From Flavobacteriales bacterium (GTDB taxonomy: Bacteria; Bacteroidota; Bacteroidia; Flavobacteriales_F; PHOS-HE28): 64,000 nt of DNA. The notes below the pieces were generated by a model that saw nothing but the letters and a program-made list of their open reading frames with translations, did no database searches and was not told the origin of the DNA. Both the position numbers and the translations under genes were made by a program. Within the stretch, counting starts at the first letter, position 1. Every line of letters begins with the position of its first letter. Below, in pieces: positions 1,254 through 4,113 of this stretch. Where the stretch lies: the NCBI GenBank assembly GCA_023957375.1, contig JAMLHB010000001.1, positions 124,001 through 188,000 of the forward strand. Direction: 5' to 3'.

Positions 1254-1422
1254 AACCCGGAATGTGCAGTAGCTTGACTACTACGACCCGGAAACGCTTT
1301 GCCACAGTGCGTTTCACGCATTTTCGTTCCTCACCGGGAACGTGGCCCCGCCTTCATCACGAAAATGCCTGTGGCTGTGCGTTTCCGGCTCTCGCTACGT
1401 CAGCTACTGCATAATCCGGGTT
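1254..1422. repeat. 169-nt imperfect palindrome
   Basis: Four arm pairs nest in order: 1254-1273 with 1403-1422 (18 of 20 positions complementary), CCGGAAACGC 1288-1297 with 1379-1388, GCCACAG 1301-1307 with 1369-1375, and GCATTTTCG 1318-1326 with 1360-1368. The outer ends carry AAC (1254-1256) and GTT (1420-1422), the same end triplets as the sites around the two cassette-like genes. It may be a long attC-like site or the scar of a lost cassette. No gene is evident in it. Confidence 0.7.
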
Positions 1423-1441: not shown

Positions 1442-1480
1442 GTTGAGCGCTGGCGCGCGAAGCGCGCGTTGGCGCTCAAC
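1442..1480. repeat. GC-rich hairpin with GTT/AAC ends
   Basis: GTTGAGCGC (1442-1450) and GCGCTCAAC (1472-1480) are perfect complements. The short interior (GGCGCGC, GAA, GCGCGCG) extends the pairing, so nearly the whole segment can fold. Its ends match the box pattern that bounds the adjacent cassette-like genes. It could be an ORF-less cassette or simply a stable hairpin. Confidence 0.6.
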
Positions 1481-1556
1481 GGTCCTGCACTAGGCAATGT
1501 GGCGCTTTCTCTTGAGTGTAATTGTTGCGCCATTTTGCTTAGTGCATGTTAGCTGC
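1472..1556. other. attC-like recombination site A
   Basis: Outer boxes are GCGCTCAAC (1472-1480) and GTTAGCTGC (1548-1556). Inside, 1487-1505 and 1527-1545 form an imperfect palindrome in which 16 of 19 positions are complementary, with a 21-base loop. The stop codon of the adjacent gene (1549-1551, minus strand) lies inside the right-hand box, as is common where a cassette ORF runs into its attC. Length and layout fit an attC site; activity is not shown. Confidence 0.5.
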
Positions 1557-2298
1557 TGATTTTTATTTGTCTTCCATCAAAAACATCAAACTCAATTGGG
1601 TCTTCACAATTATCAAGTTCTTTGAAATTCAAATCAGACATTAGTTTTAAAATTTTAATTTTCTCGTTTTGATTGTAAAATTCGAAATGCAAAACCCCGT
1701 ATTTACAAATTGATATAACTGTCTTGGATTTAGGGTATGATATGTAGAAATACGGAAGGCTTGCATTACATCTAATAAGCCAAAAAAGATGAGGAATAAA
1801 CTCAAGAATAGCTTCACCATTCAATAAAAAACCACCGTCAAAGTTCTTGTCAATTTTTTTACTTAAATAATTTAAAGCATTCTTGACAGGTAAATATTCA
1901 TTCTCTTGATAAAGCCAAGGTGTGTTTTGTACTCCCAATATCATTAAATTAGTTTCTCCTAATTCAAGTCGGATATTTTCTAAGGAGTTTGCTATATCAT
2001 TTAAGTATTCAGTTGTATTATCCTTAGAAGAGATTATTAAACGACTTTCAATAAACTGTAATGGTTTAGGATTTGTAAATGGGTTAGAATCTCTATTTTG
2101 TTCAAATTCTTGATTTTGTTCCTCGTTTAATTTATCTGCCAATTCTTTAGTTAAAACAGTCCCTTTATCATCGTTCATATCAAGAATTACACTTTCACCT
2201 TCTTCATAGGGCTCCGGTTTAAAACTCATCTGTAAATCCAAAATAAATTGTGTAAATACAGGATTTATTGATAATATTTCTTCTCTCGATTTAATCAT
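1549..2298 (-). CDS. Hypothetical protein, cassette gene 1
   Basis: This 249-residue protein starts MIKSREEILS. I do not recognise a family. It has no signal peptide or membrane segment and is rich in Asn, Lys, Ile and acidic residues, so it is probably cytosolic. The gene is far more AT-rich than its neighbours, indicating acquired DNA. It fills the space between boxes GCAGCTAAC (2307-2315) and GTTAGCTGC (1548-1556), and its TAA stop lies in the latter. The ATG at 2298 is 8 bases inside the cassette. It has no obvious promoter of its own and may depend on read-through from the recombinase side. Function unknown. Confidence 0.7.
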   Translation of the reverse strand: MIKSREEILSINPVFTQFILDLQMSFKPEPYEEGESVILDMNDDKGTVLTKELADKLNEEQNQEFEQNRDSNPFTNPKPLQFIESRLIISSKDNTTEYLNDIANSLENIRLELGETNLMILGVQNTPWLYQENEYLPVKNALNYLSKKIDKNFDGGFLLNGEAILEFIPHLFWLIRCNASLPYFYISYPKSKTVISICKYGVLHFEFYNQNEKIKILKLMSDLNFKELDNCEDPIEFDVFDGRQIKISS

Positions 2299-2306
2299 CT
2301 TTATTT

Positions 2307-2437
2307 GCAGCTAACGGTTTGGCTAAAGCTAGTGCGGCTTTCCGTAAATTCCTAAGGAACCGAGATCGTCATTGTCAACCGCGTCTGTGTCTTCCAAGAC
2401 GTAATGGCCGCATTAGCTTTAGGTGTTGTTGGTAGCC
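2307..2437. other. attC-like recombination site B
   Basis: The site separates the two AT-rich genes. Outer boxes are GCAGCTAAC (2307-2315) and GTTGGTAGCC (2428-2437). Inner arms CTAAAGCTAGTGCGGC (2323-2338) and GCCGCATTAGCTTTAG (2407-2422) are complementary at 15 of 16 positions around a 68-base central region. Spacing is similar on both sides (7 and 5 bases between box and arm). About 130 nt is within the size range of attC sites. Confidence 0.5.
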
Positions 2438-2452
2438 GTTTTTTCTTATTCT

Positions 2453-2809
2453 TTATTTCCATCCTGAATACATCAAATCAATCAGTCCAAAAGTCCCGAA
2501 AATAGGAAGCAAAATTGCCGTCAACAGCAAACTGTATGTCAGTATGTTTCTATGGTATATATCAACCTTTTTATAAACTCTTACAATGTCGGTCACAGAG
2601 TTTGAAATTAAAAGTCCAATGCACACTACAGCAAAACTTCCACCGACAAACAGCAGAGGCATTGTGAAGAATTCTGATTGGGCCCTTCCTCCTCCTGTCA
2701 ATTTTTGATTGTCTATAGATTCTGGTACCGCGGAAAGAATTAAAATAATGTCCGTCAAAACTGCTACTGAGGCAATGACCAAACTTGTTATTTTAAATCC
2801 TTTGTACAT
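2453..2809 (-). CDS. Small membrane protein, cassette gene 2
   Basis: This 118-residue protein has three hydrophobic segments: about residues 8-27, 48-69 and 88-112. The loop after the first carries a Gly-rich TGGGRAQ stretch. I do not recognise a family. The gene is AT-rich and lies between perfect complementary 10-mers GTTGGTAGCC (2428-2437) and GGCTACCAAC (2835-2844). It is the cassette nearest the recombinase gene and points the same way. The ATG at 2809 is 25 bases inside the cassette edge. Small membrane proteins are frequent among cassette genes, but no function can be assigned. Confidence 0.65.
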   Translation of the reverse strand: MYKGFKITSLVIASVAVLTDIILILSAVPESIDNQKLTGGGRAQSEFFTMPLLFVGGSFAVVCIGLLISNSVTDIVRVYKKVDIYHRNILTYSLLLTAILLPIFGTFGLIDLMYSGWK

Positions 2810-2834
2810 CCTGTCAAGGTTGTCGTTTTCAAAT

Positions 2835-2952
2835 GGCTACCAACGTAGGGTTGCCGCAGATCTTCGCCTATTTCGCAAGTGGTTGAATGGGGGTGATCCT
2901 CGCATATTCCGCCCCAAATGGACAAAAGGCGTAGGTTTTGGCTGAAAGCCCG
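2835..2952. other. Candidate attI-like insertion site
   Basis: This stretch joins the stop codon of the recombinase (2953-2955) to the first cassette-like gene. It contains GGCTACCAAC (2835-2844), which read on the minus strand gives the GTTGGTAGCC box that opens the cassette. Next to it is a small inverted motif CAAC-CCTAC-GTTG (minus strand). No long palindrome comparable with sites A and B is present, as expected for an insertion site as opposed to a cassette site. Only a weak pairing CGCCTATTT/AAAAGGCG remains. Confidence 0.35.
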
Positions 2953-4113
2953 TCACGAGAGGTCCAATGCATCCAGCGGGTTGACAATGCCTTGGAGGTA
3001 CCGGCTGCTGACATGGGTGTACACTTCCGTGGTTTTGCTGGATGCATGGCCGAGCAGGGTTTGAATGTAACGGAGGTCGGTGCCTTGTTCCAAGAGGTGG
3101 GTGGCGAAACTATGCCGCAAGGTATGCATGCTGGCGGGTTTTTGGATGCCGGCCTTGGCCAAGGCTGCCTGCATCACCAGTTGAAGGCTGCGTGCCGAAT
3201 ACATGCCGCCGTTTTGGCCTGCGAAGAGAAAGCCGCTCGGCTGATAGGCGGCCATGTATTTCTGCAACAGCTCCGCTATTGACCTGCCGAGCAAGGTGGT
3301 CCTGTCCTTGTTGCCCTTGGCTTGGCGCACACGGATCAATCCTTGGTCGAAGAGCAGGTCTTCGGGCCGGAGGGCGATCACCTCGCTTACCCGCAGGCCG
3401 GCGGAGTAGGCCAAGGAGAGCATGGTGCGGTGCTTTAGGTTGTCCGGGGCTTTGAGCACCGCTGCCACCTCGCTCTTGCTCAGCACGAACGGCAGTTTGG
3501 TTTCCTTGCGCGGCCGCTCAATGAAGGTGACCCGCTTCGCATCACCCACCACGTTCATGTAGTAGTACCGTACTGCGTTCACCACTTGGTTCAGGTGGCT
3601 GTTGCTCACCTTCCGTACGGTGGCCAAGTGGTGCTGGTACGCCTCGATATCCTCCGTGCGGATGTCGCCAGGGGGCTTGGTGGGGAAGTGCAGGAAAAGG
3701 TGCTTGGTGGCATTCAGGTACGCATCGATGGTGCGTGGGCTGTAGCGGGCGATCTCCAACTTGCGCTGCATGGCCGCCAAGGCTTCCTGCTGTTCAGCGT
3801 TCGGTGCGGCTTGCGCAGGCTTTGCTTGCTGCGCAGGTGCCTTCCCCGTAGCAGTGGACCCGGATGCGGTCTTGTTGATCAACGCCGTAGTGTCCACCCA
3901 AGCGAGGCCCTTGAAAGCCTGGAAGATGGTCCGCAAGTGCTCGGGCGTGTTGGGCGTGTACCAGCGCTTTTGGGTCTTGCTCCACTTGGCTTCGGCCTTT
4001 TTCGCTGCGGCTATCAGCTCCGTATTGTAGGGGAACGCGATGGCAATGCAGTGCTCGGTAGCATGCACCAAGTGTTCCAGGCGAACGGTGGTTTTGCCGG
4101 GTTTTTCGTCCAT
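2953..4113 (-). CDS. Tyrosine recombinase/integrase
   Basis: This 386-residue site-specific recombinase is of the XerC/D-like phage integrase family. Residues 10-80 form an N-terminal module with the motif WSKTQKRWYTPNT, common in Bacteroidota recombinases. About 110-195 is the SAM-like core-binding domain and 205-386 the catalytic domain. Catalytic residues are visible: R241 (SAGLRVSEV), K266 (QAKGNKD), H330 and R333 (HTLRHS), H356 (LLGH) and the nucleophile Y365 (TEVYTHV). The extra helix typical of IntI integrases between the second and third conserved patches is absent. I chose the ATG at 4113 because upstream codons translate the repeat at 4165-4310. Its 3' end faces the cassette-like genes, in the same orientation. 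Confidence 0.9.
   Translation of the reverse strand: MDEKPGKTTVRLEHLVHATEHCIAIAFPYNTELIAAAKKAEAKWSKTQKRWYTPNTPEHLRTIFQAFKGLAWVDTTALINKTASGSTATGKAPAQQAKPAQAAPNAEQQEALAAMQRKLEIARYSPRTIDAYLNATKHLFLHFPTKPPGDIRTEDIEAYQHHLATVRKVSNSHLNQVVNAVRYYYMNVVGDAKRVTFIERPRKETKLPFVLSKSEVAAVLKAPDNLKHRTMLSLAYSAGLRVSEVIALRPEDLLFDQGLIRVRQAKGNKDRTTLLGRSIAELLQKYMAAYQPSGFLFAGQNGGMYSARSLQLVMQAALAKAGIQKPASMHTLRHSFATHLLEQGTDLRYIQTLLGHASSKTTEVYTHVSSRYLQGIVNPLDALDLS

Follow-up and report, generated by a model that had tools for sequence, protein, structure and literature searches.

A tyrosine recombinase followed by two AT-rich cassettes

The locus described here lies at positions 1,442 to 4,113 of a 64,000-nucleotide stretch of DNA (the window) from a Flavobacteriales bacterium (assembly GCA_023957375.1, contig JAMLHB010000001.1, positions 124,001 to 188,000). 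It comprises a tyrosine recombinase gene, an attI-like stretch, a cassette encoding a 118-aa protein, a cassette encoding a 249-aa protein, and a terminal hairpin, in that order on the minus strand (Table 1). An earlier note, made from the sequence alone, had interpreted the recombinase and the cassettes, correctly described as pointing in the same direction, as an integron-like capture system that is not a classical integron. This interpretation is now supported by the arrays that accompany homologous recombinases and by cassettes that come and go precisely at GTT. Features that the note had not mentioned are the attI-like stretch, the terminal hairpin, the A.C mismatches, which are conserved, and two further copies of the arrangement in the same genome. 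The cassette genes are indeed AT rich, with G+C contents of 37% and 29%, compared with 60% for the window and 60% for the recombinase gene, and neither has a match in the Pfam, NCBIfam or PADLOC families. Overall, our results make it very likely that the locus belongs to a gene-cassette capture system that works as integrons do, with its own recombinase and its own type of site.

Paired boxes and covarying hairpin sites

The four boxes reported earlier are present at 2428-2437 (GTTGGTAGCC) and 2835-2844 (GGCTACCAAC) for one gene and at 1548-1556 (GTTAGCTGC) and 2307-2315 (GCAGCTAAC) for the other. Their complementarity is real and extends further than had been noticed: in the first pair, 10 bp are followed by an A.C mismatch at position 11 and then by 3 more bp (GTTGGTAGCCATTT / AAACGGCTACCAAC). 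The same design recurs in the R boxes of homologous loci, which pair over 10 bp from GTT inwards, place an A opposite a C, and pair again over 3 bp, being complementary within each cassette and different between cassettes. In a new set of 80 homologous loci, there were 98 such pairs in 266 kb of 3' flank; the 5' flanks, 231 kb in total, held 4, and 6.3 were expected from shuffled sequences. Among box pairs in the 3' flanks of homologues, position 11 held A.C 69 times, against 13 to 28 times for each other combination; when the outer 3 bp were required and A.C was not, 102 of 131 pairs still had it. Pairs of this quality (GTT, at least 6 of 7, A.C, at least 2 of 3, within 3 kb) number three on the minus strand of the 64-kb window, two of which are those described here, and none on the plus strand. 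Exact boxes sought without the mismatch rule did not exceed shuffles in GC-rich flanks; it was the A.C rule that split signal from chance.

Between cassettes lie 46 to 125 nt that fold into one hairpin. The imperfect palindromes proposed for sites A and B are present, and both are matched by a covariance model, R1, built from 21 sites of the same survey; site B is one of these 21, so its match is not independent. Rfam contains no family for the window sites, where it returned only sub-threshold chance matches. In the alignment of the 21 sites, both sides have changed in 18 of 19 stem pairs, and the covariation score is 0.858, compared with 0.19 for shuffled sequences and no more than 0.17 after sliding of the partner. 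Across 79 non-redundant sites from many Bacteroidota families, the stem has its mismatch at one place, usually 15 nt after AAC, with A on the 5' side and C on the 3' side in 71. The two strands are unequal because an A.C mismatch on one is a G.T wobble on the other, and the opposite strand forms the more stable hairpin in 72 of the 79 sites. In classical attC sites, the strands are distinguished by bulged bases. By analogy, the A.C mismatches would mark the strands and probably decide which one is folded and recombined. Covariation and strand asymmetry are compatible with recombination of a folded, single-stranded attC site, which we infer here.

The hairpin that ends the window array consists of an R-box pair with an A.C mismatch and no insert between the boxes. 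Hairpins of this kind, 39 to 48 nt long, directly follow the last attC-like site in 11 arrays of the window's genus, including this one, and were not observed in the other families scanned. They may represent an end site or a terminator.

Cassettes are gained and lost exactly at GTT

Where it was identified, the first box lies 48 to 254 nt 3' of the recombinase stop codon. In two pairs of genomes, the recombinases are 99.8% and 100% identical over 900 nt and the attI regions are identical or have one difference, yet the sequences are unrelated right after GTT. Such abrupt divergence is the trace expected of different cassettes inserted at G^TT beside the recombinase. Judging by sequence divergence, insertion occurs at G^TT in an attI that adjoins the integrase gene, as in integrons.

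Whole cassettes, from GTT to GTT, are found in unrelated contexts with 95 to 100% identity. Namely, a cassette in an array of the window's genome is 99.9% identical over 1,304 bp to one of another species, a cassette is shared at 99.8% identity with a genome of another class, two loci of the window's genome share a cassette that is 100% identical over 1,108 bp, and a relative shares one with Flavobacterium denitrificans DSM 15936 (95.4% over 1,441 bp). Two arrays contain tandem duplicate cassettes. The strain comparison suggested by the earlier note thus revealed cassette gain and loss in related genomes, precisely at GTT. The main open reading frame runs in the direction of the recombinase in 92 of 102 cassettes, and the arrays consist, like those of integrons, of tandem mobile cassettes that each combine a gene with an attC-like site.

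The product of the 1,304-bp cassette is a dihydropteroate synthase with 60% identity to Sul3 and 49 to 50% to Sul1 and Sul2; its copy in the window's genome is frameshifted. This Sul-type cassette is near-identical in three genomes, one of them of another class (L066, 3' flank 105-1407; L220; L222). The F. denitrificans cassette encodes a MerTP mercuric transporter. For the window's own cassettes, no matching plasmid was present in the searched collection.

Taken together, these features suggest the following mechanism. The recombinase would cut at G^TT and place free circular cassettes, each made up of one gene (sometimes several) and one attC-like site, into the attI-like site that adjoins the 3' end of its gene. 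Once a cassette has been excised as a circle, its two R boxes (GTTRNNNNNNA and CNNNNNNNYAAC) would meet on either side of the covarying hairpin, and the conserved A.C mismatches, one in the R arm and one in the L arm, would do the job of the bulged bases in classical attC sites. Since the array is mostly 3' of the recombinase gene and in the same direction, transcription of the cassettes may start at the recombinase promoter, or else at promoters of their own.

Table 1. Features of the window array and of related loci (window positions unless a locus is given)
Feature	Position	Strand	Basis or comment
Tyrosine recombinase, 386 aa, non-IntI	2953-4113	-	Profile scores, missing IntI insertion, tree, AlphaFold2/Foldseek
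Extra N-terminal domain of the recombinase, residues 1-82	3868-4113	-	Separate and well predicted in the full-length model
attI-like site, 108 nt, from recombinase stop to first cassette	2845-2952	-	Insertion point after G2844
R box opening cassette 1, GTTGGTAGCC A TTT	2831-2844	-	Box pairing
Cassette 1, 529 bp assuming a G^TT cut, 40% G+C	2315-2843	-	Box pair and attC-like site
Cassette 1 gene, 118 aa, hydrophobic product	2453-2809	-	
R box closing cassette 1, AAA C GGCTACCAAC	2428-2441	-	Box pairing
Site B, attC-like site of cassette 1	2305-2438	-	R1, 64 bits, E 2.8e-12 (whole genome); hairpin
Cassette 2, 835 bp assuming a G^TT cut, 31% G+C	1480-2314	-	Box pair and attC-like site
Cassette 2 gene, 249 aa	1549-2298	-	
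Site A, attC-like site of cassette 2	1470-1558	-	R1, 55.9 bits, E 3.0e-10 (whole genome); hairpin with A.C mismatch
Array-terminal hairpin, GTTGAGCGCCA...CAGCGCTCAAC	1442-1480	-	R-box pair with A.C mismatch, no insert
IS66-like insertion in second copy; degenerate third copy	L019 6500-8700; L020 10180-10420		
tet(X) cassette loci	L088 2369-3838; L089 2210-3845; L086 8034-10110		tet(X2) in two plasmids, tet(X3) in Acinetobacter

Distribution across the genome and the phylum

The window's genome holds two further copies of the recombinase family, one on contig 2 that is interrupted by an IS66-like element and a degenerate one on contig 3. Each is followed by AT-rich cassettes with matching boxes of another sequence. 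Over the 3.83 Mb of this genome, R1 detected 9 sites, 5 at the three recombinase loci and 4 in two arrays without a recombinase; no IntI above the cut-off is present. The array in the window belongs to no conserved block, since the gene flanking it occurs in 9 relatives on contigs that lack a recombinase of this family. A dispersed repeat of about 167 bp is located nearby, at window positions 1255-1421; contig 1 contains three more copies of it, 96% identical, and related genomes have copies as well.

Among 247 genomes of the phylum, 129 contain R1 sites and 81 contain the recombinase by a strict cut-off. Sites are present in 73 of the 81 recombinase-positive genomes, compared with 56 of the 166 others (odds ratio 17.9, p = 5e-18, with genome relatedness uncorrected). 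The earlier note had proposed testing whether homologues, too, carry AT-rich genes with matching end boxes in their 3' flanks; they do, and among the 47 homologous loci for which 700 nt or more of 3' flank were available, 40 have a box pair or R1 match 3' of the recombinase. It had also raised two opposite patterns, homologues devoid of arrays and conserved synteny of the two genes with the palindromes in genomes without the recombinase; both were looked for, and neither was seen. In the other 33 of the 80 loci, the contig ends less than 700 nt after the recombinase. Because contigs stop so soon, as if assemblies break at the arrays, counts from draft genomes are lower bounds.

The longest run of sites was found on plasmid pPP2 of Persicobacter psychrovividus (NZ_AP025294.1), where 73 sites on one strand extend over 100 kb (303368-404592), up to a gene matching the recombinase at the end of the record. 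In the last 35 kb, all 30 annotated genes lie on the strand of the array, and the genes are almost exclusively hypothetical. By its sequence, this array, carried by a culture-collection strain, reaches superintegron size. Recombinase homologues were also observed on contigs labelled Nitrospirae, Rhodobacteraceae, Neomarinimicrobiota and Cloacimonadota (L109, L127, L142 and L161), which may reflect either transfer beyond the phylum or misbinned contigs.

tet(X) cassettes

On an Acinetobacter plasmid, the recombinase matches the gene annotated “xerD” next to tet(X3); this gene is truncated, with 49.5% identity. It is followed by an attI-like stretch, GTTATGTGCCATTT, tet(X3), AAACGGCTACTAAC, the first part of a site, and then res. 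The boxes of tet(X3) agree at 4 of 7 inner positions, plus the A.C mismatch and the outer TTT; since the inner agreement is this limited, the copy is decayed or composite. An intact arrangement is found in Sphingobacterium faecium pWB8, where tet(X2) is framed by GTTATGTGCCATTT and AAACGGCACATAAC and flanked on its two sides by R1 sites that score 95.9 and 95.3 bits. In Bacteroides fragilis, the tet(X2) cassette is 99.7% identical from GTT to GTT, and it is followed by erm(F), versus an exonuclease-domain gene in S. faecium. Homology between tet(X3) and the S. faecium tet(X2) also starts exactly at GTT. On this sequence evidence, tet(X2) is an intact cassette of the system described here.

The xerD-tet(X3)-res-orf1-ISVsa3 context has been described previously, together with Flavobacteriaceae tet(X) contexts that could not be aligned with those of Acinetobacter (PMC7494873). 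Another study reported no integron or other mobile element at tet(X) and proposed testing XerD (PMC7473080). Studies of tet(X) contexts have thus seen the recombinase and no integron (PMC7494873, PMC7473080, PMC11194056). Our results offer an answer to the open question in the resistance field of why “xerD” so often adjoins tet(X): if our interpretation is true, tet(X2) is a cassette, and tet(X3) left Bacteroidota with a piece of the recombinase and of attI.

The recombinase and alternative explanations

The catalytic residues listed in the earlier note (R241, K266, H330, R333, H356 and Y365) are nearly invariant among homologues. The recombinase contains the Pfam domains PF00589 and PF13495 and stays below the curated cut-offs for XerC (177.9 bits, cut-off 335), XerD (176.8, cut-off 329.6) and, just under, XerA (218.5, cut-off 220, the values obtained with NF040815). 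Most members of the family carry an extra N-terminal domain of about 80 residues, for which a single-sequence model was poor (pLDDT 52). Pfam HARP, the motif of SMARCAL1-type annealing helicases, was recognized in 3 of 36 homologues (best E 0.0023), and comparison of the domain with the SMARCAL1 HARP in PDB sequences stayed at chance level (E 1.3). The domain is thus faintly HARP-like, a lead on which we base no claim. An alignment of 19 recombinases from several subfamilies was too diverse for the collection scan, for which a narrower alignment was used. Four related recombinases (L213, L214, L215 and L216) lack the domain, and arrays of this type lie 5' of their genes, in divergent orientation, like those of classical integrons. 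The product of one cassette (L073, 5321-6674 of the 3' flank) is itself tyrosine-recombinase-like, though diverged, and has a C-terminal extension.

Could the locus be a classical integron, with a diverged IntI and ordinary attC sites? Its anatomy is the same (integrase, attI, one-gene cassettes, hairpin sites and a G^TT edge), and the AlphaFold2 model of its recombinase (pLDDT 89) finds its best Foldseek match in the integron integrase 2A3V. A tree of 38 proteins separates IntI and the new recombinases from Xer at 99/98, with thin sampling of three Xer rows only, and the AU test does not reject a topology that unites IntI with some of the new recombinases (p-AU 0.36). Yet the IntI-specific insertion is missing, as had been noted earlier: the alignment breaks where IntI has 64 residues (183-246 of PDB 2A3V) and the window recombinase has 21, and the TIGR02249 match is split in two, leaving out positions 180-239, with 211.7 bits against a cut-off of 265. 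In the same tree, the 8 IntI rows form a 100/100 clade that includes none of the 27 new recombinases, which group together at 93/76, a small set with a divergent 5'-side array included. The window recombinase is placed, in this tree, as sister to IntI and outside the IntI clade. The sites differ as well. Classical attC sites have the R-box consensus GTTRRRY and extrahelical (bulged) stem bases, whereas the new boxes often deviate from GTTRRRY and carry A.C mismatches. Classical and new sites were compared only through R1, which detected none in 112 kb surrounding seven IntI loci of Bacteroidota plus a four-cassette class 1 integron. Although IntI occurs in 70 of the 247 genomes, these are nearly all outside the window's class, where 1 of 61 listed genomes exceeds the cut-off; nor does IntI raise the presence of R1 sites, which among recombinase-negative genomes were found in 11 of 49 with IntI and 45 of 117 without. 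A classical integron is thus very unlikely, and the evidence supports an integron-like system that falls outside IntI integrons by each integrase and site feature compared: the insertion, the clade, and the GTTRRRY box with bulged attC.

Alternatively, chromosomal XerC/XerD could move the cassettes at dif-like sites, the neighboring recombinase being a bystander. Such Xer modules are known from Acinetobacter plasmids (PMC12907356), and tet(X3) neighborhoods have been annotated with “xerD” (PMC7494873). We regard this as extremely improbable: the sites are long covarying hairpins, their presence tracks this recombinase, the insertion edge adjoins its gene, and R1 identified no site near XerC/D genes. 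It is equally hard to credit that other mobile elements brought the AT-rich genes and that the palindromes are terminators or dispersed repeats, since, even though terminator-like hairpins stand at operon ends and a dispersed repeat lies near the array, boxes match within and differ between cassettes far beyond the shuffled expectation, shared units start and end at GTT, the arms covary around a fixed mismatch position, and up to 73 sites follow each other on one strand.

Some observations weigh against the cassette-capture system proposed here. Fifty-six genomes have sites although no recombinase passes the strict cut-off, which may reflect orphan arrays, diverged recombinases or assembly gaps; 8 have the recombinase and no detected site; and metagenome assemblies supplied many of the loci. 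R1 itself derives from sites of this survey. The layout is not universal, because one related recombinase clade holds its array on the 5' side, divergently. The recombinase acting on each array is assigned by its neighborhood, and the case for recombination is built from sequence.

A probable integron class in Bacteroidota

Integrons collect antibiotic-resistance genes and are thought to be nearly absent from the best-known members of this phylum; a 2022 survey of complete genomes recorded one complete integron in Bacteroidetes proper (PMC9024848). According to our survey, a cassette system with different machinery is present in about half of the sampled genomes. Bacteroidota, and above all Bacteroidia, likely have their own class of integron, with an IntI-sister recombinase, mismatch-marked attC sites and arrays of up to superintegron size, which would also be the source of tet(X) and other resistance cassettes for other bacteria. 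On the same interpretation, the system would have been overlooked because integron searches ask for IntI. We found no earlier description of it in Bacteroidota in the open-access literature; preprints and most subscription papers were outside the scope of this search, so a prior description is possible. If the interpretation is true, integron evolution gains a sister group in which the strands of folded sites are marked by a second means, and the cassette pool of the phylum can be catalogued with one covariance model.

Comparison with known systems

Like IntI/attI/attC integrons, the new system has a tyrosine integrase, an adjacent insertion site, unidirectional arrays of mostly one-gene cassettes that can reach superintegron size, and imperfect hairpin sites with matching R boxes and a G^TT edge. 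Unlike theirs, its recombinases belong to a clade that lacks the IntI insertion and mostly carries an additional N-terminal domain, and it has R boxes of 10 bp, conserved A.C mismatches in the R and L arms, and an array that is usually 3' of the recombinase. Compared with classical attC sites, its boxes read GTTRNNNNNNA, and the unpaired position is an A.C mismatch instead of a bulge.

Treponema integrons have their array on the 3' side of the integrase. The reverse-oriented integrons of Spirochaetota (mentioned in PMC9668308) resemble the new system in having the array at the 3' end of the recombinase, but their enzymes are IntIs. The Xer (dif) modules of Acinetobacter plasmids (PMC12907356) also have resistance genes moved by tyrosine recombinases; they are described as having dif-like sites, relying on the host XerC/XerD, and having no dedicated recombinase gene. 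In the new system, R boxes with hairpin sites form the cassette edges that were detected, although no search for dif-like sites was made. Finally, the xerD-tet(X3) context (PMC7494873) shares the recombinase family, the attI-like sequence and the end boxes, and differs as a remnant would, with its recombinase truncated and its attC site cut off by res.

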